Virus record (IMG/VR): IMGVR_UViG_3300046559_000735
Span: 1-27,971 of that record
Strand: one strand, 5' to 3'
Source: a virus
DNA: 27,971 nt
Positions 7,447-23,417 of the stretch are shown here, piece by piece. Within the stretch, counting starts at the first letter, position 1, and each line of letters opens with the position of its first letter. The notes beneath the pieces are model-generated. The model had not been told where the DNA came from. It saw nothing but the letters and a program-made list of their open reading frames with translations, and did no database searches. Position numbers and translations under genes: made by a program.

Positions 7447-7988
7447 GAGTCCCTCATGTTAGCAATACCGGCGAAGCTCAACGCCTCCGATAACTTCTCC
7501 CTTGACGCCTCAATCCGATTTTCGAGTGCAAACGCCAGGGCACTACCAAGCAGCCGCGTATACGCCTCAGTAAAGATCGAGTCCCAAAAATCTTCGAGAA
7601 CCTCGACGGTCGCAAGAACACTAGATGCCGCGACCCGCGTTACGATCTGCCGCACTCCAGGTACAAGACTAGTCGCCATTACGTTCCATTCAACCGGATG
7701 CGGGTCTAACGGGTTGTAATCGGCTGGAATAACTTGCCGTACCCGAATAATGTTAGGGTATTGATAAGCGAACAACCACGCCGGGGGCGGATTCCCTGCC
7801 ATAGCTACCAGTGGAATTTGGAGCATCGACCAATCATAATCACCCTCGTACAAGAGGAAGTTACGAAGTGGTACGTAGAGAAGGTTTGCGTACAGCGCTT
7901 CCGTCGAACCATCCGTCATCGACGAAATCTGAGATCGCGAGCCGATCTGAGCAAGCGCCCGATTGGTTACATCAACGCTTGTTGTCAT
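7443..7988 (-). CDS. Tail tubular protein A-like adaptor, copy 1 (181 aa)
   Basis: The N-terminal block VDVTNRALAQIGSRSQISSMTDGSTEA is the standard opening of phage adaptor (gp11-like) proteins. It is followed by VPLRNFLLYEGDYDWSM and AWLFAYQYPNIIRVRQV, matching the aromatic central motif of copies 2 and 3. The C-terminal helix contains EDFWDSIFTEAYTRLLGSALAFAL. It would sit on the portal or between portal and nozzle. The ATG overlaps the stop of the upstream exported fibre-like gene (ATGA). Confidence 0.85.
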   Translation of the reverse strand: MTTSVDVTNRALAQIGSRSQISSMTDGSTEALYANLLYVPLRNFLLYEGDYDWSMLQIPLVAMAGNPPPAWLFAYQYPNIIRVRQVIPADYNPLDPHPVEWNVMATSLVPGVRQIVTRVAASSVLATVEVLEDFWDSIFTEAYTRLLGSALAFALENRIEASREKLSEALSFAGIANMRDS

Positions 7989-9598
7989 GGGAACCCCGAA
8001 ACGCCAGTGCAGATGTAGCTGATTCTATACGTTCCCGGCGTTGTCAAAGAGCCTGCGCCCGTTGACCAGTTAAAGTTCGATTCTGTAACTGAATGATTTG
8101 CAAGAAAATGCGTAGTGGTCGCTGGCCACGCCTGGGGATTGGGAAAGCTCGCGGCCCCATCCGGCCGTAAGATACATACACTGTCATACTGCCCCACATT
8201 GTCGCCATAGGTCAAGTTTATCGTGCCCGTACTAGCTGGAGCGGCTCCCGTCACGACGGTAAAGTTTCCGGAGCGGCTAGTCGATCCAGAACCTATAGTA
8301 ACTACCGCGCCCGTCCCGAAACCAGTCACAGCAACTGTGGGCTTACCCAACGGCGAATAGAGGCCACCATCTTGATCCCAACCAGCCGAACTTCCGGGAA
8401 AGAAAGTAGAAAGGCCGCCGATTGTCTCAATCGTACTATTGCTCTGCGCCTTATACCGTATGCCTGTAACGGCACCGCAGCCTGAAAAACTTACGAAGTT
8501 AGAGCTCTCATAGATGACGCCGTTCTGTCCAACCTGTGCAAACGCACCGCTAAAACCAGGAGTCCCCACACACGACACCACTTTAGCTACTTCGGTAAAT
8601 TCAATGTGCCCGCCTAGGATAGCGGCTTCGTGGTTCACGGCGCTACCTGAGATGGTGTAATTTGAGTTTACGATGATTGTGGAACCGAACTCAGCGTGCA
8701 TGTGATCCGCTGCAGTCGTGGTAAAATTTACGTCGTCGTTGATACTGATGATCCCGCCACTCTGTGGGAAAACGGCGTTTCCTCCTGACGAGCCAATCGT
8801 CATCTTAGCGATACCCAAGTAACAACCATGCCCTGCGACTAAAGTTTCTCCCGCAGAGGTCACGGTCGTTGTGCCGGAAGAAGCACCTGTGATAAGGATA
8901 TACTCCGGAACGACTGAGCCAATAGCTGTACCTGCGGCCGGCCCTGAACACGAGATCGTACCTGAGTACGTACCTGCAGCAAGGCTTATGGTTATCTGGT
9001 TAGCCTTGCCGTTGTAAAGTGTGAGGGCATGATTGAGTGCATATTGCGCGGTTAGGCATGGAGCCCCAACCAAACAATCCCCTGTATCGGTTCCACCTGT
9101 AGTGACGAATAGAGTTGTTGGCGCGTTCAGTACCGACAAGCCGCTATCCTGTACCAGTGTGCCGCTGGTGTTGTTGAAAGTTAGGATATGCCCGATAGTT
9201 GAGCTGTTCGGACCAAGTATGTTGCCCTGCCCGGTGCCAGGATAGTCAGAAAGGCTGCCATTCACGTTAAACGTGAGGGGCAGCGTCGAGGCGCCGCCGA
9301 AAGACCCCCACGTCACAAGTCCGTGACTCGCATCAATACCAAGACATAGCTGATGATATCCTGCTGTAGTCAGGGCATCATTTATGCACATGCCTTTGCC
9401 TGAGGCATCTGTTACGCTGAACGGGTTAAGTCCTTTACCGAGGTTATCTCCCAGGACTCCTCCAGGATCACCAACCGCATGATCCTGTGTCCAGCGCGAT
9501 ATACTGCCGGGAGTTACCGCGCCGTTCTGTCGAACAGCCTGTTGCCCCCACGAGGCGCTGGTCCAAAACAACGCCAGGAGAAAAGCTAGCCGTTTCAC
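7985..9598 (-). CDS. Exported, cysteine-rich tail-fibre-like protein with beta-helix-like core
   Basis: This 537-residue protein starts at a GTG overlapping the upstream stop (AAGTGA). It begins with a Sec-type signal peptide: KR, then LAFLLALFW, then SASWGQ, with likely cleavage before a Gln. The mature part is Gly/Ser/Thr-rich and beta-rich. A segment around residues 155-330 (GDCLVGAPCLTAQYALN, ISLAAGTYSGTISCSG) is typical of phage parallel beta-helix proteins. There are 10 cysteines, all after the signal peptide. It is encoded between capsid-associated small genes and the adaptor genes, a common place for a tail appendage. No enzymatic motif was recognised. The export signal is unusual for a virion part. 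Confidence 0.7.
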   Translation of the reverse strand: MKRLAFLLALFWTSASWGQQAVRQNGAVTPGSISRWTQDHAVGDPGGVLGDNLGKGLNPFSVTDASGKGMCINDALTTAGYHQLCLGIDASHGLVTWGSFGGASTLPLTFNVNGSLSDYPGTGQGNILGPNSSTIGHILTFNNTSGTLVQDSGLSVLNAPTTLFVTTGGTDTGDCLVGAPCLTAQYALNHALTLYNGKANQITISLAAGTYSGTISCSGPAAGTAIGSVVPEYILITGASSGTTTVTSAGETLVAGHGCYLGIAKMTIGSSGGNAVFPQSGGIISINDDVNFTTTAADHMHAEFGSTIIVNSNYTISGSAVNHEAAILGGHIEFTEVAKVVSCVGTPGFSGAFAQVGQNGVIYESSNFVSFSGCGAVTGIRYKAQSNSTIETIGGLSTFFPGSSAGWDQDGGLYSPLGKPTVAVTGFGTGAVVTIGSGSTSRSGNFTVVTGAAPASTGTINLTYGDNVGQYDSVCILRPDGAASFPNPQAWPATTTHFLANHSVTESNFNWSTGAGSLTTPGTYRISYICTGVSGFP

Positions 9599-9936
9599 TT
9601 CTTCATCCTCGCTGGCGCCCCGTCAGGCTTCGGTTCGCGACGGCGCGTATTAAACCCTGGTACGAAGTCCTTCTCCCACCCGTCCTCAAGATTCATATCT
9701 TCGATAGGATTCATCGAGGCTTCGTTAGTGGCAAGACGCGCCTGCTCAAGACCTATCATGGCCTCAGCTTCCTCATCAAGGGGCTCCATCTCGAGTGTCG
9801 GCCACTTCACTTTGTAGGGTGTGCCATCGCCGACGATGGTGCCTTTCTGCTCACCGAGCTGATCGTTCTCTTTATCGCCGGGCAGCCAATGATCGCCTTC
9901 GAGATAATGTGCGGATAAGAGACGGTACTTAGCCAT
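9595..9936 (-). CDS. Small MAKYRLL-type protein, 113 aa, unknown function
   Basis: The protein opens MAKYRLLSAHYLEGDHWLPG and contains VGDGTPYKVKWPTLEMEPLD. Its N-terminus is paralogous to the upstream 136-residue protein (MARYRLLAPHVIDGVYLL). From memory, such YRLL...VGDGT starts occur in small phage proteins encoded next to capsid genes. A clear ribosome-binding site, AAAGGAG, lies upstream of the ATG. The C-terminus is Lys/Arg/Pro-rich. It may be a head decoration or completion protein, but no role can be assigned from sequence. The stop overlaps the GTG of the exported fibre-like gene. Confidence 0.75.
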   Translation of the reverse strand: MAKYRLLSAHYLEGDHWLPGDKENDQLGEQKGTIVGDGTPYKVKWPTLEMEPLDEEAEAMIGLEQARLATNEASMNPIEDMNLEDGWEKDFVPGFNTRRREPKPDGAPARMKK

Positions 9937-9937
9937 G

Positions 9938-10348
9938 TCAGGCTCCTTTGACGTAGGGTATCAGCGGGTCATTCGGAGATACCGAACCTGTATGAGGCGC
10001 CCAATAGTGATCTGGCGGCGCACATGGCATGTTCGGCTCTGAGCAACACCCTGACGGAATCTCACGTGTGGGATGAGGCTGTGGCGGGTTCCACGTCATC
10101 GGCCGCCCCATATTCTCAGGTCGGTTCAAAAGAACCGGGGAGCCGTCGATGTGACGGCCCCCCGGCAACGACTCGGCCGTAATCGCCATGCGCCAGTCCC
10201 AACACCGCATCGACTTAACGCGGCTGACTGCATCATCATCGAGCGGGTCCATATCGGGAGTTGGCAACAGATCTCCATCTACCACAGCCCCCGACAGCAG
10301 GTAGACTCCATCTATCACGTGCGGCGCAAGAAGGCGATAACGGGCCAA
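9938..10348 (-). CDS. Small MARYRLL-type protein, 136 aa, TTG start
   Basis: The start codon is TTG. It is chosen because TGAGGAG lies 7-8 nt upstream and because the resulting N-terminus, MARYRLLAPHVIDG, lines up with the neighbouring paralogue. After the shared ~20 residues the two proteins diverge. This one has LPTPDMDPLDDDAVSRVKSM and a Pro/Cys-rich C-terminal half (SGCCSEPNMPCAPP). The four clustered cysteines could bind metal or form disulfides, which is speculation. It sits just downstream of the capsid cement region, so a head-associated role is plausible. Confidence 0.7.
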   Translation of the reverse strand: MARYRLLAPHVIDGVYLLSGAVVDGDLLPTPDMDPLDDDAVSRVKSMRCWDWRMAITAESLPGGRHIDGSPVLLNRPENMGRPMTWNPPQPHPTREIPSGCCSEPNMPCAPPDHYWAPHTGSVSPNDPLIPYVKGA

Positions 10349-10363
10349 GTCGTGTCTCCTCAG

Positions 10364-10765
10364 TTAGGGTTTCGCGACGGGTTTCGGTGTGGCGGGCTCG
10401 GGGCCAGCGTCCTGTTTGAGCTGAGCCAGCTCCCGTTCCTGCATCGGCGTTCGGGAAGGCAAGCCCTCCAGAAGCGCGATTCGGTCCAGCACATCTTGTG
10501 GAACGGCCACCTCGCGCCGTCCCTTGATAGGCCAGTCCACACCACGCTCCTTCGCCTGCTCCGCGCTCACCGGCTCCGCAGCTCGTTCGGCGGCTTGTGC
10601 CTCTTCGAGCGCCTTGCGCTGTGCAGCTCGCAGCGCCATTTCAGCCTCGAAGTTCTTCACCGCCTCGTTTTCGTCAGGGACCGACACCGGCTGTGGTACG
10701 ATAAAGACCGGAGCAGGTGCCGGCGCGTCCGGTGTGGCCGCTGCAGCTGGTTTTGTGGTTTCCAT
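10364..10765 (-). CDS. Pro/Ala/Glu-rich helical protein, 133 aa, unknown
   Basis: The ATG at 10765 (METTKPAAAA) is chosen over a longer frame beginning at 10813 because AAGGAGAG lies directly upstream and the longer version would read through a 35-bp palindrome. The sequence has an Ala/Pro N-terminus, then a charged helical region (NFEAEMALRAAQRKALEEAQAAERAAE), then VDWPIKGRREVAVPQDVLDRIALLEGL and a Pro-rich tail. No family is recognised. Position right after the capsid and cement genes suggests a head-associated or assembly protein. Confidence 0.7.
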   Translation of the reverse strand: METTKPAAAATPDAPAPAPVFIVPQPVSVPDENEAVKNFEAEMALRAAQRKALEEAQAAERAAEPVSAEQAKERGVDWPIKGRREVAVPQDVLDRIALLEGLPSRTPMQERELAQLKQDAGPEPATPKPVAKP

Positions 10766-10779
10766 GGTTGCTCTCCTTC

Positions 10780-10814
10780 GATGTACATGAATGGACGGTC
10801 CATACGTGTACATC
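10780..10814. promoter_or_regulatory. 35-bp near-perfect palindrome, copy A, between cement gene and next gene
   Basis: The outer arms are GATGTACA and TGTACATC (8 bp, perfect). The inner arms are ATGGAC and GTCCAT (6 bp, perfect) around one central G, with a 3-nt unpaired stretch on each side. It overlaps the cement-gene stop codon and lies 14 nt before the next start. A second copy with the same length and spacing is at 27368-27402. It could be a protein-binding operator or an RNA hairpin at the 3' end of the cement gene message. Confidence 0.75.
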
Positions 10815-11310
10815 AGTTGTTAATAGTGATACCCGGCGGATAGCTGATTTGGTCCTGCCGATCCAGCACAATCGCGCCGAATATCGTCCCTGTCGAATGG
10901 GTTCCGGCCGTGACGTACTGCAGCCGCAAGAACCGCGGCAATGCCTGTGCTGCCGTGGGTGCAAGCTCGGTCGGCAACAAAATGCGTGGCAGGTCGATTG
11001 CGAGGAGCAACCGGCCAGCGACCAGCACCGCTTCGAGCAATGTCCCTGTCGTAATCATCGTTGTGTACGAACCAGGGTTCCCGGTTCCGTCATCCGGGGC
11101 ACCCTGAATCTGTACCTCCAACGACGTACCCACGGTGAACGTCGCTGTGACAAGGATGAGGACTTTGAGCGCCGGATCATCCCCGATGCCCATATCACGG
11201 GCATTAAGGAGGTCGAGCACATTCGTGCTCTGCTGCGTCCCGGTAGTGGGAGTATCCACATTGACGGCGCCTGCCGTGCCTGTGAATTGAAGGGCTCCAT
11301 CTAAGATCAT
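10813..11310 (-). CDS. Capsid cement/stabilisation protein, Bbp16-like
   Basis: The 165-residue protein has a jelly-roll-like, beta-rich composition, with LDLLNARDMGIGDDPALKVLILVT, GTSLEVQIQGAPD, LLLAIDLPRILLP and PRFLRLQYVTAGTHSTGTIFGAIV. These segments match the family of capsid cement proteins exemplified by Bordetella phage Bbp16 (comparable in role to epsilon15 gp10), as recalled from those families. It is placed immediately downstream of the major capsid gene, as in those phages. The start ATG is preceded by AAAGAGGAG. The stop codon is inside the 35-bp palindrome, which may limit or process downstream transcript. Confidence 0.8.
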   Translation of the reverse strand: MILDGALQFTGTAGAVNVDTPTTGTQQSTNVLDLLNARDMGIGDDPALKVLILVTATFTVGTSLEVQIQGAPDDGTGNPGSYTTMITTGTLLEAVLVAGRLLLAIDLPRILLPTELAPTAAQALPRFLRLQYVTAGTHSTGTIFGAIVLDRQDQISYPPGITINN

Positions 11311-11335
11311 GACCTATCTCCTCTTTGCGCGGCGG

Positions 11336-12379
11336 TTAGGTGATACGGGCTTCGGTGTTCAGGATCGCGTCAACAGTACGGATCGGAACTCCACGGAAGG
11401 TCGTTACAACCTGTCCTTGGAACTCTTCCATCCGCAGCAAGACGTTCGTCTTGTTCATCGCCTGCAAATCCAAGTAAGTACGAAGCACACGATTGCAGTA
11501 GATGACTGTGCGGCCCATTTGTCCCTGAATCGTTGGGGCATCCGAAGTCTGCACACCAGACATCATTGGCGAGGCTGTCGGGAGACGATACAGCCCACGA
11601 ACAAGGCCATTGATCAGATTTGCTGCCGACGCACCGTTCAGCAACGTAACGTCGATGTTACACAGCCGCACGGTATAACGCCAATCCCGAAGGGTGAGAC
11701 CGATCTCCCATTTGAAGTGGTCTCGATAAGCCTGATACGTGTTCAGGGCGGCATCTTGGACCGGCCATTCACCCATATCGCGGTGCTGCAACCCGGTAAT
11801 CTTCCCCTTCGGGAAAATGCCGTGTAGCGTCTGAGCACCCCACGTCGCGATCCACAGCGATGTATTCGTAGAGCCGGTCCCGCCCATGTCGATAACCTGT
11901 ACGGCGGTCTGTGCCGTCGCAGCCGTTACCGTGTTGTAGCGCGGGGCAAGACCCATGAACCGTTCCGGGTTCACGCCAGTATTCCCGTACACCAAGGTGG
12001 TCGCCACCTGCTGGTTCATACCTTCCAGAAAGGCCGTGACCTCCGACATACGGAACTCGGCGGTGTTTCCATTCAGATCGGCGATGTCTTTATCGACGAC
12101 CGAATAGACCTCCAAGTTTCCGCAGGTATCCACGATCGGCGCTGTCGTGGATTTGGCGTTCGGCACGCCATAGTTCAACAGGCGCCACGTTGCCTGTGGG
12201 AGACCTGTCCGCACCGTGGTTTTATGCCCGGTCGGCAGATTGCCCTCGACCACCAACATGTCGAGCAGAATCTCGTTTGTCTGCGAGAGCAGCTCGACAA
12301 TACTGGCGATTTTGTAATCATCGTCAAGTCGTTTCGCCCAGTCCGCGTAGGTCAGGGCGGTTGCACCAAGAGTTGCCAT
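11336..12379 (-). CDS. Major capsid protein, gp7/Bbp17-like (HK97 fold)
   Basis: The 347-residue length is close to the ~335 of epsilon15 gp7. The N-terminus TALTYADWAKRLDDDYKIASIVELLSQTNEILLDM is characteristic of this capsid family. It is followed by PQATWRLLNYGVPNAKSTTA, FLEGMNQQVATTLVYGNTGVNPERFMGLAPRYN and a C-terminal FRGVPIRTVDAIL. This would form the shell of the head. A strong ribosome-binding site, AAGGAGA, precedes the ATG. It is flanked by the scaffold gene upstream and the cement gene downstream, the usual order. Confidence 0.93.
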   Translation of the reverse strand: MATLGATALTYADWAKRLDDDYKIASIVELLSQTNEILLDMLVVEGNLPTGHKTTVRTGLPQATWRLLNYGVPNAKSTTAPIVDTCGNLEVYSVVDKDIADLNGNTAEFRMSEVTAFLEGMNQQVATTLVYGNTGVNPERFMGLAPRYNTVTAATAQTAVQVIDMGGTGSTNTSLWIATWGAQTLHGIFPKGKITGLQHRDMGEWPVQDAALNTYQAYRDHFKWEIGLTLRDWRYTVRLCNIDVTLLNGASAANLINGLVRGLYRLPTASPMMSGVQTSDAPTIQGQMGRTVIYCNRVLRTYLDLQAMNKTNVLLRMEEFQGQVVTTFRGVPIRTVDAILNTEARIT

Positions 12380-12390
12380 TTAACGTCTCC

Positions 12391-13059
12391 TTAGAGCTTC
12401 GGACCTCCGGTGTGGGGCCCATCTTGACCGTAGATCGCCTGAGCAAGGCCCGGACGAGTGTTACTCAGTGAGCCGTCTTTGCTACGAGCGGCTGGGTCGC
12501 CCGAAACCGATCCGCCCTCTGATAGGCGCTGCGCCCACCGATAAAGAGTGCGAACTACTGCCGGGTTGTTTCCAGCTCCCGTAAGATTGAGGGCTTCACG
12601 GAACTTCGGGTCTGAAAGCTCTGCGTTATCAAGCACCTTTGATACTGTCTGCTTGACCTCATCGAGTTTAGCCCCGCCGATTTCAGGGTCACCTTTTATC
12701 TCGGTGACCCAGTCCGTCTGCTGTTTATCCCATCCACCATAGAGTTTGTCCATGTTCGTTTTCATGGCGGTCGCCGCAAGTTCGACCATCTTCTGTGCTT
12801 GCGGTCCAGTTAGACCCGGAATCTCTTTCGCGATGTTCTTGAACTCATCGAACTGTTCGCCAGCCTCGAACCCCTCAGGAAGCGTGAGCTTTTCCGGGTC
12901 GAAGGCGTCGGGTGGCGGCGTGTCGCCACCGAGCAGCGAAGCGTCCGGCTTCTGATCGTCGTCCGCCGTGCTAGGCGGCGTCGGCTCCGCTGGTATCGTC
13001 GATACTCCCCCGCTCTGTGTCGGTCCCGGCGGAGTCTGAATCGGGGCTGGATCTGACAT
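12391..13059 (-). CDS. Scaffold-like head assembly protein
   Basis: This 222-residue protein is acidic with a Pro-rich N-terminus, then KLTLPEGFEAGEQFDEFKNIAKEIPGLTGPQAQKMVELAATAM and a charged helical region (DPEIGGAKLDEVKQTVSKVLDNAELSDPKFREALNLTGAGNNPAVVRTLYRWAQRLSEGG). The pattern LPEGF..., a GLTxxQAQ helix and a C-terminal NNPAVVRTL block is familiar from podovirus capsid-assembly scaffolds encoded just before the capsid gene. The ATG has GAGAG upstream and lies inside the end of the Bbp19-like gene, with an overlap of 89 nt. Confidence 0.8.
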   Translation of the reverse strand: MSDPAPIQTPPGPTQSGGVSTIPAEPTPPSTADDDQKPDASLLGGDTPPPDAFDPEKLTLPEGFEAGEQFDEFKNIAKEIPGLTGPQAQKMVELAATAMKTNMDKLYGGWDKQQTDWVTEIKGDPEIGGAKLDEVKQTVSKVLDNAELSDPKFREALNLTGAGNNPAVVRTLYRWAQRLSEGGSVSGDPAARSKDGSLSNTRPGLAQAIYGQDGPHTGGPKL

Positions 13060-13337: not shown

Positions 13338-15026
13338 TCATCCTACGTTTTCGTTGCCGAGGATCATTTGCAGTGCATTCTTCCCGCCGCCCACGTCGGT
13401 ATTTGATAGTGTCTCAGCACCCTGCGCCGCCCCCATTGCGGCCTGCCCGGCTTGTGCCATTTGCTGCGCCTGTTCGCGCTGCGCTGCGATAGCCTGCGCA
13501 TCTTTGGTTGGCACGATTATCTTCGGTGACACGCCGAGGGCATCACCGTACTCGTCCATCGTTTCGTAGGCGTCGAGCTTGTCCAGCACCGTGGGCACGA
13601 CGCCGGCCAGCGAACCGGCAAATCCCCAAATCTTCTCTATGGCAGCTGTCGCGAGCCCGCGCTGCGCCATCGCCAACATAGAGATGTAATCTACTTGGAT
13701 GTGAGTGGGGAGGCCGCGAAGTTTCGCTGGAGGTGGGGGCAAGAGACGCCCTCTCCACATAATTCCCCAGACTCGGTCGATAGCCTTGCTAAGCCCTTCA
13801 CCAAGTATTCGCTCAAGCACCGGACCGAGCAATACCAGTTTCTCTTCGCGTCTGGCATCAATCTCAGTGGCCGTCCGCACAGTTTGCAGGTCAGTAATGC
13901 CTGTGAAGAGATCGTTGTGGAAGGTGATCTTGAGGCGCTGCTGGATTTCACGAATATCCTCCTTCATCTCACCTATCGGGGGCATGACGGTATAGAGGGG
14001 CTTTGCACCAACGCGCGAGTTGTCAAGACCGGCTACGTAGGTCCACCCGCCCGGCAGCATCGAGGCTGGCTGGTTTTTTAGCTGCACATCAGCGATCATG
14101 GGTGGGTTTACCATCTTGTCGATAGCCTGCGCCTTCCGTCGCGTCTCCTGCTGCAGCTGCTTTACGTCGCCGAGAGCATCCATGCCGGGGCTTCGACCGT
14201 AGGGGTCATTTGCCACCACGTCCCACCGGGGAACCATCCCAGGCCACTCGAAGAAGCCTTTCGCGCGGAGTATCCTGTCCTTCGGTGAGCCCCACTCCCA
14301 GTACACTTCCCTAAACGGGAAGCTACTCGAAACCACGTCGTTATATCCTTTGTTGGGCTCGATAACGTGCATTATGAGTTTTTCTCGGGTAGATGAAGCT
14401 GACATACCTGGGTTCGAGGTGTTAACGGATTGTTGCACATCTGGACCGGCGTTGTCAACCCCAAACATATCAGCTATTTGCTGATGTGTCATCGTGAACT
14501 CTCTGGCAAGAACATTCGGGTTGAACTTCGCATCAAGCTCCACAAAATACTCACCGGCGCATGGATTGAAACAGTGAATTACATTCTCGAAATCCTCATA
14601 GATAATGATGACGGCAGTACCGAACACGACGAGGTCGAAGTACATAACCGCCATCGCGGTGTAGAAATTCGACTCCGCAAAGACCCGCATCATGCGTTTC
14701 TCGCACTCAGAGAGCCAAATCGAGACCTCTGGATCGTCCTCAGCGTTCTCGATCTTGAGTTTGAACCAGGGCCGCGTAGGTGAAGTGATCCCTGCCATCA
14801 TACCCGCCGCAAGCGTGCGCGCGGCGAGTGTTGCTGTCGAGTCCACGATGTTGTAGTTGATAGGTGACCCTCGATTTGCTTGGTTGGCAACCACGAGCCA
14901 CCGATAGCGGCGGGGAAGAATGTAGTCGGAAAGCTCGCGCCAGTGCAGCCACCAACTATAGCGGCGGATACGCATACCCCCCACCTTGCCGTCAAGGTGC
15001 GTGCGTAGATCTTCTACACTGGACAC
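13338..15026 (-). CDS. Portal protein (head-to-tail connector)
   Basis: The 562-residue product carries classical features of the head-to-tail connecting protein family: an N-terminal RYSWWLHWRELSDYILPRRYRWL, DSTATLAARTLAAGMMAGITSPTRPWFKL, VVFGTAVIII, then EVYWEWGSP, GFFEWPGMVPRWDVVANDPYGRSPGMDAL and QQETRRKAQAIDKMVNPPM. The C-terminal ~70 residues are Gln/Ala-rich. It forms the dodecameric DNA gate of the head. The start is GTG (MSSVEDLR), 10 nt after the stop of the preceding gene and with only a weak ribosome-binding site, so coupling to the upstream gene is likely. Confidence 0.93.
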   Translation of the reverse strand: MSSVEDLRTHLDGKVGGMRIRRYSWWLHWRELSDYILPRRYRWLVVANQANRGSPINYNIVDSTATLAARTLAAGMMAGITSPTRPWFKLKIENAEDDPEVSIWLSECEKRMMRVFAESNFYTAMAVMYFDLVVFGTAVIIIYEDFENVIHCFNPCAGEYFVELDAKFNPNVLAREFTMTHQQIADMFGVDNAGPDVQQSVNTSNPGMSASSTREKLIMHVIEPNKGYNDVVSSSFPFREVYWEWGSPKDRILRAKGFFEWPGMVPRWDVVANDPYGRSPGMDALGDVKQLQQETRRKAQAIDKMVNPPMIADVQLKNQPASMLPGGWTYVAGLDNSRVGAKPLYTVMPPIGEMKEDIREIQQRLKITFHNDLFTGITDLQTVRTATEIDARREEKLVLLGPVLERILGEGLSKAIDRVWGIMWRGRLLPPPPAKLRGLPTHIQVDYISMLAMAQRGLATAAIEKIWGFAGSLAGVVPTVLDKLDAYETMDEYGDALGVSPKIIVPTKDAQAIAAQREQAQQMAQAGQAAMGAAQGAETLSNTDVGGGKNALQMILGNENVG

Positions 15027-15036: not shown

Positions 15037-16008
15037 CTACGGCTGTGGATCAGGGTCTTCATGGCCGCGTGTGGCCGGGCCACTAACGATGTCCCGAAGG
15101 TTGCTGAGTACCCCCGTCGCCTCGTCGAGCAAAGCTCCGATCTCTTCGATCATCGCAAGCGGTTCGTTGGTCGGCTGCGGGGTCGGCTGCGGGGTCGGCT
15201 GCGGGGTCGGCTGCGGGGTCGGCCCAGGAGTAGCACTCCCAAACGGGTCGTCATTCGTAATCTTCACGCCGTTTAAGGCGTCCCTCATGTCATTCCACGC
15301 TGTGCTCTTTCCTGTCAGAATCCTGTAGTTCTCGGCCAGCGTCTTGCCGCCTGCCTTGGTTATCTGGTCGATGGTGTAGTTGAGGGAAGTCATCCATGAC
15401 AGATAGACCATGCCACAACCGATTGAGGGGTAATCCTGATCGGTGCCCTGATCTTTGTCGATCCAGTTTGGCCGCCCTGCCAGATACCACGACGGGGCCG
15501 ATGTGAACGCGGCGAGCGCTCCATTCGGCCCTCCCGAAACGGCTTCGGCCAGCCACCGTGATAGCGCCTCGCCTCCCGAACCGCCGCAGTTCCACCCCTT
15601 CCCTTGCGCCCCCATAAACGCCTCGGACAGCTCCGCCTCGTAGAGGCCAATGACTATCGAAGAGTTACCGAACGCGGCGTCGATGTAGAGGGTGCCGCCA
15701 GTCTGAAAGTCACAGCCGTAGTGGTACGCACCCGCCGTGCCGTTAGTAGTGCTACCGTCGATCGCCGCCACGACAGCGATGATTGGTTTCCCGGCAATGC
15801 CGAACCACGTCGCAGTCTGCTCGAATACCTTCTGCGCGACTGCGAGTAGAGCCTTCGCGTTGGCAAGTCCTGGAGCACCAAGACTCGGATCGTAGTAAAC
15901 GGTCACGTCGGTAGTCTTGCCGACGAGTTCTGTTGGGAAGTCGAAAGGCTGATCGGCTGCGTTGTGGGGCGGCGTGATGGTCTTGCCGGGAAGCGTAAGA
16001 ACTCTCAT
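15037..16008 (-). CDS. 323-aa protein with secreted-hydrolase-like domain and PTPQ linker, unknown
   Basis: Residues ~35-225 form one domain: VTVYYDPSLG, KPIIAVVAAIDG, GAYHYGCDF, LYEAELSEAFMG, GWNCGGSGGEALSR, YLAGRPNWID, YPSIGCGMVYLSWM and GKTLAENYRILTG. I recall similar order and motifs in uncharacterised secreted bacterial proteins, where the helix before SExFM carries a His-Glu pair. Here the position reads Ala-Glu, so any metal-dependent activity may be lost. After it comes a PTPQ repeat linker (~residues 261-280) and a short acidic helical tail. No signal peptide is present. It is encoded between the lipoprotein and the portal. The function is unknown. AGGAGA precedes the ATG. Confidence 0.65.
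   Translation of the reverse strand: MRVLTLPGKTITPPHNAADQPFDFPTELVGKTTDVTVYYDPSLGAPGLANAKALLAVAQKVFEQTATWFGIAGKPIIAVVAAIDGSTTNGTAGAYHYGCDFQTGGTLYIDAAFGNSSIVIGLYEAELSEAFMGAQGKGWNCGGSGGEALSRWLAEAVSGGPNGALAAFTSAPSWYLAGRPNWIDKDQGTDQDYPSIGCGMVYLSWMTSLNYTIDQITKAGGKTLAENYRILTGKSTAWNDMRDALNGVKITNDDPFGSATPGPTPQPTPQPTPQPTPQPTNEPLAMIEEIGALLDEATGVLSNLRDIVSGPATRGHEDPDPQP
15169..15216. repeat. Four perfect 12-bp tandem repeats encoding Pro-Thr-Pro-Gln linker
   Basis: The unit GGTCGGCTGCGG (plus strand) is repeated four times without change, with a degenerate fifth copy following. It keeps the reading frame, so copy-number change would only alter linker length. Confidence 0.95.
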
Positions 16009-16018: not shown

Positions 16019-16654
16019 TCAGTTTACACGGATTTGATAGGATCGGTAAGCCGGCGTTATGCTAAGACGCCCCGGCGCTGGCGCACCCACAACCGACAGA
16101 TGATTAACCGCCGCCGCAACGGCCTGCTCTTGCAACGCCTCGATGCCCGCCGGGCTGCATGGTGCGTACGCGTCGTAGATACGGGCGTAAGCTTCAGCAC
16201 CAGTTCGCGGCTGTGGCATTGTGCCGATCAAGGTTTGCTGACCAGTCATCACCAATGTGCCGATCGAGGCTGGGCGTGTACCCGCGAGGGCATACTGATT
16301 CGAGTTGTTGATGAGGCCTGCAAGGCCCGAGCCAGCCATCCCTGCAATCCCAACCGGCCCTCCCGCTACCCCTGCAATCCCCATAATCCCCGACGCGAGC
16401 CCCGTCAGCGCATTCACCTGCGAGACGGTCTGTACTCGCGAAATGTTGTCGAGGGTCGCCTGATCGAAATAGCTTCGGCATCGCATCTGCACGAGAGTGA
16501 GGCCGTTGGTGTAGAACGATGGCACGTCGGTTATGGCCGCGGTCTGTGCTGTCAGCGCGTTCACGTCAGGGATGCTCAGCATTCCCGGAGGGGAGACCTG
16601 CGTCCCACCACAGCCGGCAAGAGCCAAGGTTAGGGCGAGGATGAGGCGGGTCAT
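16019..16654 (-). CDS. Phage-encoded lipoprotein, 211 aa
   Basis: The start overlaps the stop of the preceding gene (ATGA). The N-terminus MTRLILALTLALAGC is a lipoprotein signal with lipobox LAGC, so Cys15 should be lipidated. The mature part has one conserved-looking Cys in MRCRSYFDQ, a Gly/Ala-rich stretch (GLASGIMGIAGVAGG), and a second Cys in IYDAYAPCSPAGIEAL. I recall similar pairs of cysteines in lipoproteins of alphaproteobacterial prophages. It directly follows small membrane genes near the endolysin. Candidate roles are outer-membrane lysis factor (o-spanin-like, though long and not Pro-rich) or superinfection exclusion. A longer frame upstream is an artefact, since the 55-residue gene is read there in another frame. 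Confidence 0.75.
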   Translation of the reverse strand: MTRLILALTLALAGCGGTQVSPPGMLSIPDVNALTAQTAAITDVPSFYTNGLTLVQMRCRSYFDQATLDNISRVQTVSQVNALTGLASGIMGIAGVAGGPVGIAGMAGSGLAGLINNSNQYALAGTRPASIGTLVMTGQQTLIGTMPQPRTGAEAYARIYDAYAPCSPAGIEALQEQAVAAAVNHLSVVGAPAPGRLSITPAYRSYQIRVN

Positions 16655-16818
16655 TTGATCGGCGCGCCGAATGTGCCCCAACCGAGCAGCCCGATCAGAA
16701 TATAGAACATCAGGGCGTAAGGGCCGAACGCCTGCGAACCTGGATTGCGCCAGTACCACCCTCCCCCAAAGACAAGGCTGATAACGTAAAAAATCCAGAA
16801 CCAGATACCTGCGGTCAT
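16651..16818 (-). CDS. 55-aa protein with two membrane segments
   Basis: The protein starts MTAGIWFWIFYVISLVFGGG and ends with LMFYILIGLLGWGTFGAPIK. Two hydrophobic segments (residues ~4-22 and ~35-52) flank a short polar loop, WRNPGSQ. It has ATGA overlaps on both sides with the 82-residue membrane protein and the lipoprotein. Short two-TM proteins in phage lysis regions can be holins, antiholins or membrane-remodelling proteins, and nothing in the sequence separates these. Confidence 0.75.
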   Translation of the reverse strand: MTAGIWFWIFYVISLVFGGGWYWRNPGSQAFGPYALMFYILIGLLGWGTFGAPIK

Positions 16819-17063
16819 TTCGGTTCCTCCTTGGACGGCGTAGCTGCTGCCGCAATAACAGCGTCCTTCTTCTGACTCGATTCCGACGAGCCGAAGTAGT
16901 ACCCAACAACAGTAGCGAACTGCCCGATGATCGCGCCTACAATCATGCTAGTTGAGGACGTATCGCCTTTCAAGTACGACAGCGCGAGCGCCACGCCAAG
17001 TAACAGATATACGAACGCCCCAAGCGCCGCTTTGACTTGCCAGGGCATGTCATTGGGGTTCAC
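16815..17063 (-). CDS. Holin-like two-TM protein, 82 aa (GTG start)
   Basis: The start is GTG at 17063, supported by AGGAGGAG 4-5 nt upstream and a GTGA overlap with the preceding gene. Hydrophobic segments are at residues ~10-31 (VKAALGAFVYLLLGVALALSYL) and ~40-58 (MIVGAIIGQFATVVGYYFG). They are followed by a polar SSESSQKK tail ending in Lys/Glu. The GYYFGSS...KK end resembles many small phage holins with charged cytoplasmic tails. This and its position three genes from the endolysin suggest a holin, but it has not been proved by homology here. Confidence 0.7.
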   Translation of the reverse strand: MNPNDMPWQVKAALGAFVYLLLGVALALSYLKGDTSSTSMIVGAIIGQFATVVGYYFGSSESSQKKDAVIAAAATPSKEEPK

Positions 17064-17224: not shown

Positions 17225-17842
17225 CTAGAACCCTGCCGGCAGCGTGCCGTCACGATGCCACACCCGAAGTTCGCCCTCTGTGCCGGAAAAGATGCTGTGA
17301 TCCACCAAGGCCGGAATCCCAGGCACGTGAAGATTCGGGCGATCCTGCCAGAACAGATACTTCACGCCGTGTGGAGCCAGCCCGTACTTCGGCAGCATCC
17401 AAGGCCACGCCTGAATTTTCGGCGACGACGGATCATACATTCCGTGGTACGCCAGCGGCGGCCGGCCAATGGCACTCGCCACAAGCGCTCCGAAGGTTTC
17501 CATCCGAGCGGCGGGCGGGCGTGGCTGTCCTTCCCAGTCGATCATGACAGGGCCGCGAAGATGCCCAACCACCCGGATCAGGTTATCCAGCTGCGTTTGA
17601 ACCGGGTCGTCTGTGAGGAAGTGATAAGGTACGGCCAGCCGCGCCGTACCAAGTGCCCCGCCGAGATTCGCTTGGAATCGAGGATCGACATTGCTCACGC
17701 CCTGCGTTGCCTTAATCATCACCATCACAATCGAGGCCGGCACTTCGCGCCAGTTAATTGGACCGTTCCAGTGCGACACGTCGATGACGCCGCCGAAGGT
17801 CGCTGTTGGGGACCAAACTATCTTTCCAGGTGCGAGGTACAT
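17225..17842 (-). CDS. Endolysin, GH25 muramidase
   Basis: The 205-residue single-domain enzyme shows GH25 landmarks: GVIDVSHWNGPINW (Asp21), IKATQG, YHFL, VMIDWEG (Asp102 and Glu104, the usual catalytic pair), YHGMY, YLFWQD and VDHSIFSG (Asp181). It cleaves the beta-1,4 bond between MurNAc and GlcNAc. There is no wall-binding domain and no signal peptide, so a holin is needed to release it. GH25 is less usual in phages of Gram-negative hosts than GH24, though known. AAGGTG precedes the ATG, and the gene lies between membrane-peptide genes. Confidence 0.92.
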   Translation of the reverse strand: MYLAPGKIVWSPTATFGGVIDVSHWNGPINWREVPASIVMVMIKATQGVSNVDPRFQANLGGALGTARLAVPYHFLTDDPVQTQLDNLIRVVGHLRGPVMIDWEGQPRPPAARMETFGALVASAIGRPPLAYHGMYDPSSPKIQAWPWMLPKYGLAPHGVKYLFWQDRPNLHVPGIPALVDHSIFSGTEGELRVWHRDGTLPAGF

Positions 17843-17846
17843 CAGA

Positions 17847-18277: not shown

Positions 18278-18465
18278 TGCCCCAACAGCGTCTTTCTCTG
18301 CACGGCGTTCTGGTCAGGTGCCCCGAACGGCGACGTGAGGATAGTCGAGCCAAGCCCGCCATATATGCTCGGCATCTGCGATGATGGCCCTGCCGTCGTT
18401 CCCGCGAAGGTAGGTGGGTTCGGTGGCGGGGGCGGCGGTGCAGGAGGCTTCGGTGATCCGAACAT
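18274..18465 (-). CDS. 63-aa proline-rich small structural-type protein
   Basis: The start at 18465 gives MFGSPKPPAPPPPPPNPPTF, followed by PSIYGGLGSTILTSPFGAP and a C-terminal KTLLGQ. The pattern 'poly-Pro, GGLxSTILT, KTLLG' is one I recall from many podovirus and other phage small proteins encoded near tail or lysis genes, of unknown role. The chosen start overlaps the stop of the preceding gene (TGATG). A longer in-frame reading upstream crosses that real gene and is rejected. Confidence 0.75.
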   Translation of the reverse strand: MFGSPKPPAPPPPPPNPPTFAGTTAGPSSQMPSIYGGLGSTILTSPFGAPDQNAVQRKTLLGQ

Positions 18466-18671
18466 CACGGCAGTCCATTCTCGCCGTGAATCTTGCCCGT
18501 CATCTGCGGCCGCTCTGCAGCTTCCTGCCGCTTTGACTGGTCGCCGCTGTAACGCTGCATCGCGCCGCCAAGGGGCGACACACACCCGCGCGCGTTGGCG
18601 TCGCCCCGTGCCTCGGTCGTGTGGACGGTGTGAGCTTGTCCGCCGCGTGTATGTGAACTGTTACCTGCCAT
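18465..18671 (-). CDS. 68-aa hydrophilic protein, unknown
   Basis: The protein begins MAGNSSHTRGGQAHTVHTTE and ends PQMTGKIHGENGLP. It is Gly/His/Gln-rich with no hydrophobic segment. A strong AGGAGG lies 6 nt before the ATG, and its stop overlaps the next start. No family is recognised. It lies between the tail-spike gene and the Pro-rich 63-residue protein. Confidence 0.65.
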   Translation of the reverse strand: MAGNSSHTRGGQAHTVHTTEARGDANARGCVSPLGGAMQRYSGDQSKRQEAAERPQMTGKIHGENGLP

Positions 18672-18697
18672 GTTGTCCTCCTAGAAGCTCGATTTAT

Positions 18698-21331
18698 CTA
18701 CAGCCTAGAATCTGCTGTGGCGTGGATGCAGTATGTAGAGGCGATGACGGGGGCTGTAGTGATCTCGCCGATTGGCACGCCCGTCGTGCCCTTAGCGACC
18801 GGAATATCGACGCTGACCACTGCATCAGCCGCGCCCGTCACGTTGCGCCAGTTGGCGTTGCCGGCGCTCGGATTGTAGGTCACGATCGTCGGCGACGCGC
18901 GCATCTCGACCGGGAAGCGCCACTGTGCGCCAATGCTACCGATTGTTGTGCTTGCGCCGACTGTGCATATCGCGCCGGCAAGGCCGCCAGTCTGCGCCAC
19001 CACCGTCCCCTGCGGGAAGGTCTTGGCGTAGTAGCGGCTCGCGATCTCGATCTCGTCCTTGTATTGCAGGGGGATGAACGGCGTCGGAACGGGGGACGCT
19101 TCCAACTTGACGTTGCCCATCTGAAACGTGGCACCGGTTGTCGTCGTCAGCGCGGTCTGCGCCGAACTACACTCGTTGTCGCCGTTGAACCATGCGCCGG
19201 GCGTCCCCTGAATCGTTGACCCGCATTCAAGAAACACCCGAAGGCCAGCGCCCGCTGCGGTGCCGGTCGAAACCCATGTGCCGGCTGTATCCCCTGGAAT
19301 GATAACGACACATTTTGCCCATGTCGCAGCGGTCAGGGCGCAGTTCTGAAAGTAGCTGCGAGTAGCAGCGGCGTTTATCAGAGCGATGGCGTATGTACCC
19401 GTAACCGAGGACTTCAACCAAACGCTGGCCGTTACGGTCGCCGCACCGGCAGCGCCAAAGCCCCAATTGCGAATGTTGTTGGCTTCGATCTTCTGCCAGA
19501 ACTTCGTGGCTTGTCCTGCGGTTGGGCCAGCGCCACCCGTTCCTACCGTGTATTTTATGCTGTGCTGCGCGCCCGGTGGCGCATCGGCTGAACGGGTTGT
19601 AGTTGGCGAGCCTGTGGCATTGTTTGAGGCGGATAGAATCCAGCCGTCGAGGGTGTTCGTGTTGCCGCCCGTTGGCGTGGAGTAAGGGCGGGTTGCATCC
19701 AGGCTCTCGTTGACCTGATCGACCTCCGCGCCGCCGTTGAGGATGACGCTAGGAGCGGGTGTCTGCTTGAAGTCGATCGCCGACCAGTTCATCGTCGTCG
19801 AGGTGAACTCGCCCGAGGGCGTCCCGATAAGCTGGTTGCCGGAATAGGCGACGCTCAGCGCCGCGCTGCCGACGTTGAGGACTGTCCCGCCCGCCGTGCC
19901 GTTGTTGTCCCACACGTTCCCGGTGATCGAGTATCCGGTGCCGTCCAGGAGGTTGAGCACCGAGCCGCTGGATACCGAATCGTTGTGGACATTGCCGGTA
20001 TAGGCGATGTTGCGGACCCATTTCGGCGCGGTGTTCGGGGTGCCGATTCCCACATAGAGCCCGTTGCTCAATACCGGCTGCGCCGCGATGGACGACATTT
20101 GATTGCCGGTGATAATGACGTTGCCGTACTCGACCCCGGAGATCGCCTGGATGACGCCGATGGGGGAGATGCGGTTTTCTTCCAGCGAGTCGGCGGAAAT
20201 CCTCACGGTGCCGGTCGGACCGGTCGTCATGTTGGCAAGAAATCCGAAGCCGTTGCCGATCAGCTTCGAGCCGACGATGGCGATGTCGCCACCGGCGCGA
20301 AACTCGAACCCGGCGGTGTTCCCGTACCAGTAGGTCGGCGTGCCCCCGCCCGCGCTCGATGCGTTCGCGTTGGTGTCGGCGGTGATCGTGAAGGTGTTGG
20401 GGTCGACGACGGTGACCGGGTAGTAGCCGTGGATCGTGATGTTGTTGAAGACGGTCGCGCCGTACCAGATGGCGATCTGCCCGGTGGACATGCCGTGCGC
20501 GGTGTGCGCCACGGTGACGGTGGGCGTCGTGTTGACCGTCGTGAAGGCGTTGTTGCCCTCGGTGCCGGTCGTGCAGCGATTAAGGCAACGAAGCCGAGTT
20601 GCGGTATAGGCGTCCTCGCCACCGTCCTTGACGATGGTGTTTATCTTCAATATCCCGTCGTGCCCGTGATTTATCGACTCGAAGTTATTCGTCTTGAACG
20701 CATAGGCGGAATCGAGGCGGATGCCGTCCCAGGCGTTCGAGCAAATGACGTTATCGACGTAGCTCCGCTCGTTGTACGTCGAGCCTCCGGTGCCGGTGTA
20801 GCTGAGACAGGCGCCGGACGTCTTTGGGGTATCGCTGTCCATGTAGAGGTCGCGGATGGTTACACCCCCCAGCGACGCGACGGCAAACACGTCACCCGTC
20901 GTGCGGGTGTCCCGGATAACCGTGCCGCCGGTGTTTCCTGTCCCCTGGTTTGACCCCTTCCCCGCGCCGACGATGGTTATCCCGCTCGTGATGTTGATTG
21001 TGCCGCTGACGTGGCACAATCCGGCCGGGAGCACCAAAACCCCGCCGCCATTGCCGGTCGCCGGGAAAGCCAGCGCCTGCGTCAGATTGACGGCGGCCTG
21101 GAGCGCGCTCGTGTTGTCGAAGGTGCCGTCATTGCAAAGCATCCCGCTATTCGCGCCGTAAACAACGGTCCTGCCGATGCCGAAGTTGTTGAGCACGGCG
21201 GGCAGCGTCGCGTTGGAGCCGTCGGTATTTAATTTGCCCGCAGCAACAGCAGTAGAATTTCCATCGTGAACTACCTGCGCTGACGCGCTTCCGTAGAATA
21301 AAATGGCCGCTATTGCGGCGAGATATTTCAT
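18698..21331 (-). CDS. Exported tail-spike-like protein with pectate-lyase-type beta-helix
   Basis: The start at 21331 overlaps the upstream stop (ATGA) and gives a Sec signal peptide, MKYLAAIAAILFYGSASAQ, with likely cleavage after ASA. Residues ~60-480 look like a parallel beta-helix of the pectate lyase 3 superfamily (TSALQAAVNLTQALAFPATG, VLVLPAGLCHVSGTINI, GGVTIRDLYMDSD, NAWDGIRLD). After ~residue 520 a jelly-roll-like carbohydrate-binding region follows (SVILNGGAEV, WQKIEA, TASVWLKS). Near the C-terminus is PTPFIPLQYKDEIEIASRYYAK, a motif common at tail-fibre ends. It has 12 cysteines, all after the signal. It may bind or cut host polysaccharide, with active residues not identifiable. 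Part of the gene (roughly 19.7-20.9 kb) is visibly GC-richer than its surroundings. Confidence 0.8.
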   Translation of the reverse strand: MKYLAAIAAILFYGSASAQVVHDGNSTAVAAGKLNTDGSNATLPAVLNNFGIGRTVVYGANSGMLCNDGTFDNTSALQAAVNLTQALAFPATGNGGGVLVLPAGLCHVSGTINITSGITIVGAGKGSNQGTGNTGGTVIRDTRTTGDVFAVASLGGVTIRDLYMDSDTPKTSGACLSYTGTGGSTYNERSYVDNVICSNAWDGIRLDSAYAFKTNNFESINHGHDGILKINTIVKDGGEDAYTATRLRCLNRCTTGTEGNNAFTTVNTTPTVTVAHTAHGMSTGQIAIWYGATVFNNITIHGYYPVTVVDPNTFTITADTNANASSAGGGTPTYWYGNTAGFEFRAGGDIAIVGSKLIGNGFGFLANMTTGPTGTVRISADSLEENRISPIGVIQAISGVEYGNVIITGNQMSSIAAQPVLSNGLYVGIGTPNTAPKWVRNIAYTGNVHNDSVSSGSVLNLLDGTGYSITGNVWDNNGTAGGTVLNVGSAALSVAYSGNQLIGTPSGEFTSTTMNWSAIDFKQTPAPSVILNGGAEVDQVNESLDATRPYSTPTGGNTNTLDGWILSASNNATGSPTTTRSADAPPGAQHSIKYTVGTGGAGPTAGQATKFWQKIEANNIRNWGFGAAGAATVTASVWLKSSVTGTYAIALINAAATRSYFQNCALTAATWAKCVVIIPGDTAGTWVSTGTAAGAGLRVFLECGSTIQGTPGAWFNGDNECSSAQTALTTTTGATFQMGNVKLEASPVPTPFIPLQYKDEIEIASRYYAKTFPQGTVVAQTGGLAGAICTVGASTTIGSIGAQWRFPVEMRASPTIVTYNPSAGNANWRNVTGAADAVVSVDIPVAKGTTGVPIGEITTAPVIASTYCIHATADSRL

Positions 21332-21777
21332 AGCGCCTGCCCCATAAACTTGGCAGTCGCTGACGCTGTAAGAGTATCGCACCCCGTCGTTGAAAACGCT
21401 GCAACGATTCCAACGGGTGAGGTTGTTGCTCTTATAGGTGCCTCCCACTGCGCAGCGACGGCACCTTTGGTGCCATCAGAAGAAACCGGCCAACACCAAA
21501 GCGGTGTCACCGCCCCATTCGCGGGTATTGCCGTCGCATTAAACACCATTACGTAGCCACTCGTCGCACCAATTTTGACTGAGAGGCTATACAGAGATAA
21601 GGCGTTTCCGGTTGTCCCTCCCGCCGGCTTGAAAACGTAGTTGCTGACCGAATCAGCACTTGCCTGTTGCTGGATACTGCCGATAGGTGGTCCCCCTGGT
21701 GAGGGCTGCGCACCGGCTGCGACAGCCCATAACAGAGCTGTCCCCACTAAAGCGAGTCGCTTTGACATCTTAATCAT
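21328..21777 (-). CDS. Exported 149-aa protein, tail-appendage associated
   Basis: The N-terminus MIKMSKRLALVGTALLWAVA, then AGAQ, is a clear Sec signal peptide with an AGA-Gln cleavage site. The mature ~125 residues are beta-rich (GNALSLYSLSVKIGATSGYVMVFNA, VTPLWCWPVSSDG, AAFSTTGCDTL) and contain two cysteines, possibly a disulfide. It lies between two other signal-peptide proteins of fibre type, and its stop overlaps the start of the spike gene (ATGA). It may be a small fibre or a head-binding or chaperone partner. No family is recognised. Confidence 0.75.
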   Translation of the reverse strand: MIKMSKRLALVGTALLWAVAAGAQPSPGGPPIGSIQQQASADSVSNYVFKPAGGTTGNALSLYSLSVKIGATSGYVMVFNATAIPANGAVTPLWCWPVSSDGTKGAVAAQWEAPIRATTSPVGIVAAFSTTGCDTLTASATAKFMGQAL

Positions 21778-21791
21778 GGCTTTTATCCAGG

Positions 21792-23417
21792 TCAGAATAC
21801 TACGAAGCCGATCTTGACGGTGCCATTGAGGGCGTTCGTCGCGTGCGTGTTCACGATGTTGACGGTGATCGTACCGGAGCCGGGCACACAGGAGGCGATC
21901 CAGGGATAGCCATTAGTGACCAGCGTGCCGCTGTACCCAAGGTCAGTGCACTGGATAACGTCCGTGGCGGCGACTGAGGAGTCGTTGATGACATAGGCAG
22001 TTGCGGCGGTCGCGCCCGCTGTGGTCAGGGTACCTGTGGTGGCAACGCCACGCTGACCGTTGCAGGTAACGGGCGTTGCGCCGGCGACTGTGCAGGTCGC
22101 CCCGCCAAGACGGACGTTGCCGGTGCCAGCCGCCGCAACGGAGAGGTCGCGGTTGGCGTCCGCGCCAGAACCGCCCAACGTCAGGGACGGCGCTGCACCT
22201 GTCGCCGACGGTGTGGCGATCAGGTGGTTGACGATGGTGCCCGCAGGGTTAACGACCTCAAAGGCGGCGTTGGCGTTGGCGGCCCCGCCGACGAAAACGC
22301 TGGCCACGCCTTTAGTCTGTAGGGCCAGCCCTACGTTGGTGTCGGTGCCTGTCCCTATGATAGACGGGTAGGCTGGATTGGCAGTCGCTGCACCGTTCAA
22401 GGACAGAAAATCGACCGCCGACGCAACGGTATTGGCCTGTACCGACGAGTTCGCCACGGTGGTACCGCCCAAGGCCACTGTGCTGGTGCCCTTGGGAAAG
22501 AGGCCGATGGGGATGGTGGCTCCGGAGCCGGTTGTGGTGATGGGCACCACGTTGGTTGAGGTGGAGCCGGTCACGTTCAGGTTGTTGACTGCGGAGGCGG
22601 TGCGGAGGACTGAGAACTGAACCGCCGTATCGTCGGTTAGGAACCGAAGGTTGCCGGTTCCCTTCGTGCCGAAGTCCATCGCCTCGGCGGCATCACCAGA
22701 CGCTCCGCCCGCCTTGACGGACGGTACGCTGCCAGTCGCTGCACCAGTCACGACGACTTGATTGACGCCGCTAGAGACGTTTGGTGCGAGGAGCGCTGTC
22801 GTGAACAGTGGGTCGGCTGAGGAGCCGGCCGATACGAGTGCTGCGCCGACCGTGGCGGACGGTCCAGCGAAACCAACGGCCGAGGTGCCCTCACCGATTA
22901 GTACGCTACGCGCTGTCAGGGTTGTTTGGCCGGTCCCGCCACTAGGCACCGTACCCGCACCAACGCCGGCCGCCACGGTATTCTGACAGAGGTAGTTGGT
23001 GCCGTCCGAATACGCTATCACGCCGGTATTCTGCGTGAGGGCAAGCGTTGCCGCTCCGCAGATTGTGCTGGTGGTGGGTGTGATGGTAGCCGTACCCGCG
23101 CCGATATTCTGGAAGATGAATTTGCGGCCGGACGAGAAGCCCGGCGTCCCTGCCTTCGGCAGCGTCACCGCCACCGGCGACGAGTTGGAAAACGACACGA
23201 GCTTGCCCGAATCGTTTGGGACTATGGTGTAGGTCGTTCCGGTTTGGGCGTTGGGGACGCCCGCGTATGAGTCTGCACCCTCCCACACCTTCCCAAGCGT
23301 GGGGCCGAGGAAATACTCGGTGCCGGGCGCACGGGTTTGTGCGTCGGCGTCGCCAATAAAGAAGGCGGCGACAAAGAGCGCCAAGATGCTCCGCGCCAGA
23401 ACCTGGTTAGTACGCAT
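21792..23417 (-). CDS. Exported tail-fibre-like protein, 541 aa
   Basis: The N-terminus has a Sec signal peptide: MRT, then VLARSILALFVAAFF, then IGDADAQ, with cleavage expected after ADA. The mature protein is Gly/Ala/Thr/Val-rich. It contains VTLPKAGTPGFSSGRKFIFQN and PSGGTGQTTLTARSVLIGEG, a motif found in many phage fibre and collar proteins before repeated trimeric segments. The C-terminal ~100 residues (NDSSVAATDVIQC, PWIASCVPGSGTITVNIVN) form a compact beta domain. Six cysteines are present in three close pairs. GGAAAG precedes the ATG, which lies inside the end of the 38-residue basic gene. Confidence 0.8.
   Translation of the reverse strand: MRTNQVLARSILALFVAAFFIGDADAQTRAPGTEYFLGPTLGKVWEGADSYAGVPNAQTGTTYTIVPNDSGKLVSFSNSSPVAVTLPKAGTPGFSSGRKFIFQNIGAGTATITPTTSTICGAATLALTQNTGVIAYSDGTNYLCQNTVAAGVGAGTVPSGGTGQTTLTARSVLIGEGTSAVGFAGPSATVGAALVSAGSSADPLFTTALLAPNVSSGVNQVVVTGAATGSVPSVKAGGASGDAAEAMDFGTKGTGNLRFLTDDTAVQFSVLRTASAVNNLNVTGSTSTNVVPITTTGSGATIPIGLFPKGTSTVALGGTTVANSSVQANTVASAVDFLSLNGAATANPAYPSIIGTGTDTNVGLALQTKGVASVFVGGAANANAAFEVVNPAGTIVNHLIATPSATGAAPSLTLGGSGADANRDLSVAAAGTGNVRLGGATCTVAGATPVTCNGQRGVATTGTLTTAGATAATAYVINDSSVAATDVIQCTDLGYSGTLVTNGYPWIASCVPGSGTITVNIVNTHATNALNGTVKIGFVVF

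Follow-up and report, generated by a model that had tools for sequence, protein, structure and literature searches.

Introduction

Receptor-binding parts of tailed phages are generally taken to be assembled in the cytoplasm before lysis. Virion proteins with signal peptides and disulfides are known from filamentous phages, in coat proteins such as M13 pIII. Here, we describe four fiber- or spike-like proteins with predicted Sec signals, designated F1 to F4, together with similar proteins of many uncultured relatives. The four are encoded by an epsilon15/BPP-1-type podophage from soil that is represented by a 27,971-base IMG/VR virus fragment (IMGVR_UViG_3300046559_000735; the whole stretch is referred to as the window). 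The portal, capsid, scaffold, cement, connector, and nozzle proteins of the window have homologs in epsilon15, BPP-1, and Carin-1, and in Carin-1 the base of the head spike, gp40, has been identified structurally.

Exported proteins have been described in tailed phages. The T4 protein Spackle (gp61.3) has a cleaved signal peptide and a disulfide and acts in the periplasm (PMC7650644), and a signal-peptide endolysin is found in a related phage, UFJF_PfDIW6 (PMC8951688). In one survey, the fact that hypervariable proteins lacked signal peptides was counted in favor of their phage origin (PMC6199706). Our search of the open-access literature, beyond whose reach most subscription papers lie, returned no report of exported fibers in a tailed phage.

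Results

Four proteins of the window begin with predicted Sec signals

A sequence-only reading of the window had proposed that four proteins carry Sec signals followed by Gln, together with even numbers of cysteines. Its open reading frame (ORF) coordinates are all correct, and the four ORFs lie, like every other window feature reported here, on the minus strand: F1 (7985 to 9598; fiber/spike-like, 537 amino acids, GTG start), F2 (18698 to 21331; fiber-like, 877 amino acids), F3 (21328 to 21777; a 149-amino-acid jelly-roll protein), and F4 (21792 to 23417; fiber-like, 541 amino acids). The frame of F2 is also open upstream, at 21448, and the ATG at 21331 is the fitting start. The end of F3 overlaps the start of F2 by 4 nucleotides (ATGA, 21328 to 21331), which suggests translational coupling of these two proteins.

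The predicted signal peptide of F1 comprises 18 amino acids (9545 to 9598) and reads MKRLAFLLALFWTSASWG^QQ, with the cut at SWG^QQ; those of F2 (18 amino acids, 21278 to 21331), F3 (23 amino acids, 21709 to 21777), and F4 (26 amino acids, 23340 to 23417) read MKYLAAIAAILFYGSASA^QV, MIKMSKRLALVGTALLWAVAAGA^QP, and MRTNQVLARSILALFVAAFFIGDADA^QT, with cuts at ASA^QV, AGA^QP, and ADA^QT. Each combines a positive n-region, a hydrophobic h-region, and small residues at positions −3 and −1, as expected of Sec substrates cleaved by signal peptidase I (SPase I). Signals were called with a home-made rule for the n-, h-, and c-regions that is blind to cysteines; it recovers 9 of 10 well-known Sec substrates of E. 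coli (sequences entered by hand), missing PhoA, and calls signals on all of F1 to F4, with scores of 12.8 to 16.2.

The mature parts of F1, F2, F3, and F4 hold 10, 12, 2, and 6 cysteines and their signals none, while the portal, capsid, and nozzle proteins hold 3, 3, and 4, all as the sequence-only reading had counted. The number of cysteines alone was rejected as evidence: the tailspikes of epsilon15, Carin-1, and AF, which have no signal, hold 15, 9, and 8. The argument is carried by the evenness of the counts, the conservation of the cysteines, and their association with a signal.

Signals cluster in two gene slots of related phages

Relatives (labeled with L numbers, such as L003) were gathered by means of the window's portal (13338 to 15026; about 40% identical to those of epsilon15 and BPP-1), F1, F3, and profiles of F3 and of the F1 N-terminal domain (N-domain), and signals were called in them by one fixed, stricter rule: an ATG start, a ribosome-binding site, and a score of at least 14.5. 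The ORF caller was simple, and some start codons may be wrong. Under this rule, 40 of 176 non-core ORFs in the capsid-connector slot and 16 of 123 in the terminase-portal (TerL-portal) slot carry a signal (56 of 299 together), against a background of 2 of 569 homologs of core (virion) genes and 9 of 1,603 antisense ORFs. None of 53 proteins from the virion regions of epsilon15, BPP-1, AF, Vibrio 1.021, and Carin-1 reached the threshold; two score 6 to 7. The clustering of signals in two gene slots of the relatives is not due to chance.

That the calls rest on a home-made rule speaks for another explanation, in which the hydrophobic N termini are uncleaved virion-anchoring helices or chance stretches and the cysteines are unpaired. 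The near absence of signals from core and antisense ORFs argues against it, as does the finding that 110 of 167 signal-bearing proteins have Gln as the first residue past their predicted cut.

Some relatives encode whole series of such proteins. In L073 (12838 to 18341) and L043 (14967 to 19275), rows of consecutive, apparently exported proteins, mostly without sequence relatives, follow the capsid and cement genes; one signal-bearing protein of L073 (16297 to 17232) matches a virion structural PHROG. Five exported proteins occupy the same slot in L088 (12045 to 18443), a contig that binning assigned to a Terriglobia (Acidobacteriota) genome, which, if that assignment is right, is a hint at one host group. 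The F3 domain was not found in 385 genomes of one class, a set without a positive control.

Signal-bearing proteins have even numbers of cysteines

The coupling of signal and even cysteine count extends to the relatives. Mature cysteine counts are even in 154 of the 167 signal-bearing proteins, odd in 6, and zero in 7; after clustering at 35% identity or more, 67 clusters are even, 6 odd, and 5 zero, so that 67 of 73 non-zero clusters are even. Other ORFs of at least 120 amino acids divide into 534 with even and 552 with odd counts. If parity were a coin toss, the expectation for the 73 non-zero clusters would be 2e-14, a figure that is optimistic, as the clusters remain partly related. A first, smaller set of 42 clusters contained one odd cluster (L088) and one mixed cluster (that of F1, owing to L051 alone), the remainder being even or zero. 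The L051 copy of F1 (4602 to 6212) differs very little from the window's F1 and has 11 cysteines versus 10. Parity this far from random is hard to reconcile with unpaired cysteines in proteins held by anchoring helices.

Signals and cysteines change together within protein families

F4 carries an N-terminal motif, YFLGPTLGxxW, that also occurs in signal-less spike and fiber proteins. In the form (L)GPTLGxxW, the motif stands behind a signal in the window, with which L002 is identical at this place, and in L003, L039, L067, L080, and L085; it stands near a hydrophilic, signal-less N terminus in L047, L055, L062, and L069; the L047 protein matches tail spike, fiber, and exopolysaccharide (EPS) depolymerase PHROG families. 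The F4 proteins of the window and L003 share 99% identity in their mature parts and 38% in their signals. Such divergence beside a near-identical mature part indicates that the N terminus is not a conserved anchoring helix.

F2 is homologous to tail fibers, matching PHROG 4492 with an E value of 2.6e-27. Residues 523 to 873, its C-terminal tail-fiber domain (18713 to 19765), have signal-less homologs in tail fibers of cyanophages, Methylophilales phages, and others. The six cysteines of this domain (positions 664, 674, 703, 721, 789, and 868) are found in both signal-bearing copies, F2 and its L003 relative, and are absent from 8 signal-less homologs apart from position 789, which is cysteine in S-N03. 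Conversely, the cysteine of a CQRYY/F motif is kept in 8 of 8 signal-less homologs, where F2 has ASRYY instead. Both the gain of six cysteines and the loss of a free one would be expected of a domain that had moved out of a reducing compartment into an oxidizing one.

The F3 domain is present in many phage types, nearly always behind a signal. Its conserved cysteine pair (C95/C133 in the window) is complete in 55 of 61 aligned copies, missing altogether in 5, and reduced to one cysteine in 1. The copies from signal-less complete proteins (L131, L138, L139, and L158) are three of the five pairless copies and the single-cysteine copy; the chance that signal-less members would coincide with a broken pair in this way is about 3e-5. 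Some copies have an extra loop with an additional cysteine pair. In the signal-bearing set and among F3 copies, conserved cysteines thus appear to be gained and lost in pairs, as would be expected of disulfides. The structure model of F3 (pLDDT 89) is a beta-sandwich whose fold matches in the PDB are weak, the best being a phage cement protein (E value 4e-3, TM score 0.38); these matches are too weak for a function to be read from the fold. Ralstonia phage RSK1 came up as a fold match.

The mature N-domain of F1 (9215 to 9544; QxA[V/I]xQxGxV ... C71 ... C85) recurs in 19 distinct proteins, with both cysteines invariant and unrelated bodies following it. It lies directly behind a divergent signal in 19 of 19, the predicted cut being aligned across these homologs, and several tblastn matches to the N-domain profile begin at or near that cut and not at the start codon. 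A conserved, attachment-type N terminus ahead of a variable body is the architecture of fibers and spikes. A structure prediction for F1 (pLDDT 33, from 10 sequences) was not used.

Searches with the whole proteins gave few other leads. F1 and F3 have no match to known fiber or spike families in Pfam or PHROG, none of F1 to F4 has an accepted Pfam match or a PDB relative by sequence, and F1, F3, and F4, like the N-domains and F3 domains of other loci, have no match among 50,697 phage records.

Together, several independent sequence comparisons strongly support the export and periplasmic disulfides that the sequence-only reading had inferred. F1 to F4 are almost certainly exported through Sec, and the exported proteins very probably carry disulfides. 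Virion-anchoring helices, the outcome that would have overturned that reading, are highly improbable, given signals that diverge fast beside near-identical mature parts and the existence of signal-less homologs for all but one of the four domain types.

The exported proteins may be virion appendages

We propose that F1, F2, F4, and the small F3 are modular virion appendages that become oxidized in the periplasm and attach to the virion at lysis, a reading to which we assign a probability of roughly 0.6; that the exported proteins end up on the virion is itself somewhat better than an even bet. Indirect support for a virion role comes from the modular N-domain with its variable bodies, the position among virion genes, the signal-less fiber homologs, and the lack of a signal-less tailspike in close relatives: five near relatives that extend beyond the window encode no such spike after the internal virion protein, unlike the late region of epsilon15. 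F1 lies between the cement gene (10813 to 11310; homolog of epsilon15 gp8 and Carin-1 gp42), which borders its slot on the capsid side, and three tandem connector-like genes (6087 to 7988; homologs of epsilon15 gp11 and BPP-1 bbp14) on the tail side. Because Carin-1 encodes its head-spike base at this position, F1 may, by position, be a head spike. Homology and motif, respectively, make F2 and F4 resemble tail fibers or spikes.

The main rival to virion appendages is a role as free products secreted late, either depolymerases, which would loosen the capsule or biofilm surrounding a cell in lysis, or receptor blockers, which would protect progeny from capture by debris or siblings. An extracellular product would fit signals and disulfides equally well, F3-type proteins are small and free-standing, and some relatives also keep signal-less spike or fiber candidates; T4 Spackle shows that a phage can export a protein that has a disulfide and is no part of the virion (PMC7650644). 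However, a conserved mature N-domain ahead of variable bodies is how an appendage anchor is built, the signal-less homologs of the F2, F3, and F4 domains resemble virion fibers, the genes are placed between cement and connectors, and close relatives have no signal-less spike gene after those of their internal virion proteins. Outer-membrane export machinery was not noticed either, although it was not searched for systematically. We consider free depolymerases or blockers less likely than virion appendages.

A fifth predicted exported protein, which the sequence-only reading had left out of its list, is a lipoprotein encoded near the lysis genes (16019 to 16654). Its 14-amino-acid lipobox signal (LALAG^C) reads MTRLILALTLALAG^CGG, the open frame around it spans 16019 to 16909, and its mature part has two cysteines beyond the lipid-bearing one. 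We infer that it is an outer spanin or another envelope protein. An envelope lipoprotein in the window, and the serotype conversion genes of the relative epsilon15, would suit a different role for F1 to F4, in lysogenic conversion or superinfection exclusion, in which the proteins would stay in the envelope of the host and either change its surface or keep related phages out. Their genes are, however, co-directional with the virion genes and form one block with them rather than a separate conversion module, and their domains are fiber-like and modular, which makes this role decidedly improbable.

Several points weigh against virion appendages. To our knowledge, the docking of exported trimers on cytoplasmic virions is without precedent. 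The signal-bearing members come from uncultured or unnamed contigs, although L111 and L121 bear IMG numbers in the style of isolates and may be culturable. A few signal-bearing proteins have odd cysteine counts (three among F1-type proteins), and no sequence link was found between F1's slot neighbors and the head-spike base of Carin-1. L043/L191 has a signal-less tailspike of the Carin-1 type in addition to five signal-bearing proteins, and the TerL-portal slot holds signal-less proteins that are collagen-like in L014/L015 and large in L023/L028. These signal-less candidates imply that exported proteins need not be the sole adsorption parts.

We give even odds to a two-compartment route for tailed phages: construction of capsid and tail would take place in the reducing cytoplasm, and head and tail appendages, exported through Sec, oxidized in the periplasm, and trimerized there, would clip on only once lysis brings the two compartments together. 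Late in infection, the precursors of F1 to F4 would pass SecYEG, SPase I would cut their signals before Gln, and Dsb enzymes would form the disulfides in the periplasm, where the oligomers would wait. Once holin and endolysin open the cell, filled heads and tails would meet and bind the appendages, at lysis or just after. The possible gain would be that receptor-binding and polysaccharide-cleaving parts are kept from cytoplasmic precursors, along with the stability conferred by disulfides.

Neighboring genes

The three connector-like proteins (181, 194, and 264 amino acids) each match the one connector gene present in epsilon15, BPP-1, AF, and Carin-1, a pattern that looks like triplication of the adaptor. 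A GH25-type endolysin without a signal peptide is encoded at 17225 to 17842, close to small membrane proteins that are candidate holins. The gene that separates those of the lipoprotein and portal (15037 to 16008) encodes 323 amino acids, among them a series of PTPQ repeats, and its product has no confident family assignment.

Discussion

If F1 to F4 are indeed virion appendages, virion assembly would be finished at or after lysis, co-infecting phages could mix receptor specificity, and fibers would be disulfide-stabilized for soil. Annotation pipelines in which a signal peptide counts against a virion role would then misassign an entire class of appendages. Testing cysteine parity is an inexpensive means of finding further such proteins.

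The window shares with epsilon15, BPP-1, and Carin-1 a portal of about 38 to 40% identity and the order of capsid, scaffold, cement, connector, and nozzle genes. The tailspikes or fibers of these known members have no signal, whereas the fiber-like proteins of the window are predicted to be exported and are encoded in two other slots; the tailspike slot, occupied in epsilon15, is empty in the window's close relatives. Carin-1 gp40 and its neighbor gp39 share with F1 the slot between cement and connector but lack a signal peptide and have no detectable sequence similarity to it. The PHROG 4492 tail fibers of cyanophages and Methylophilales phages are homologous to F2 over residues 523 to 873 but have no signal and one conserved free cysteine, versus the six of F2.

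Among exported phage proteins, coat proteins of the M13 pIII type differ from F1 to F4 in that they are assembled in the inner membrane during extrusion, and not in a lytic tailed phage. T4 Spackle is, as F1 to F4 appear to be, a phage protein with an export signal and cysteine pairing; it is, however, a 97-amino-acid inhibitor of the tail lysozyme and not fiber-like, and F1, F2, and F4 exceed it in size several-fold, while F3 is modeled as a beta-sandwich. Signal-peptide endolysins and signal-arrest-release (SAR) endolysins are likewise late phage proteins that use the host Sec pathway, but they are lysis enzymes rather than appendages, and the window's own endolysin has no signal. Exported phage proteins are already known for lysis and exclusion; exported fibers of a tailed phage, as F1 to F4 suggest, have no counterpart in the open-access papers searched.

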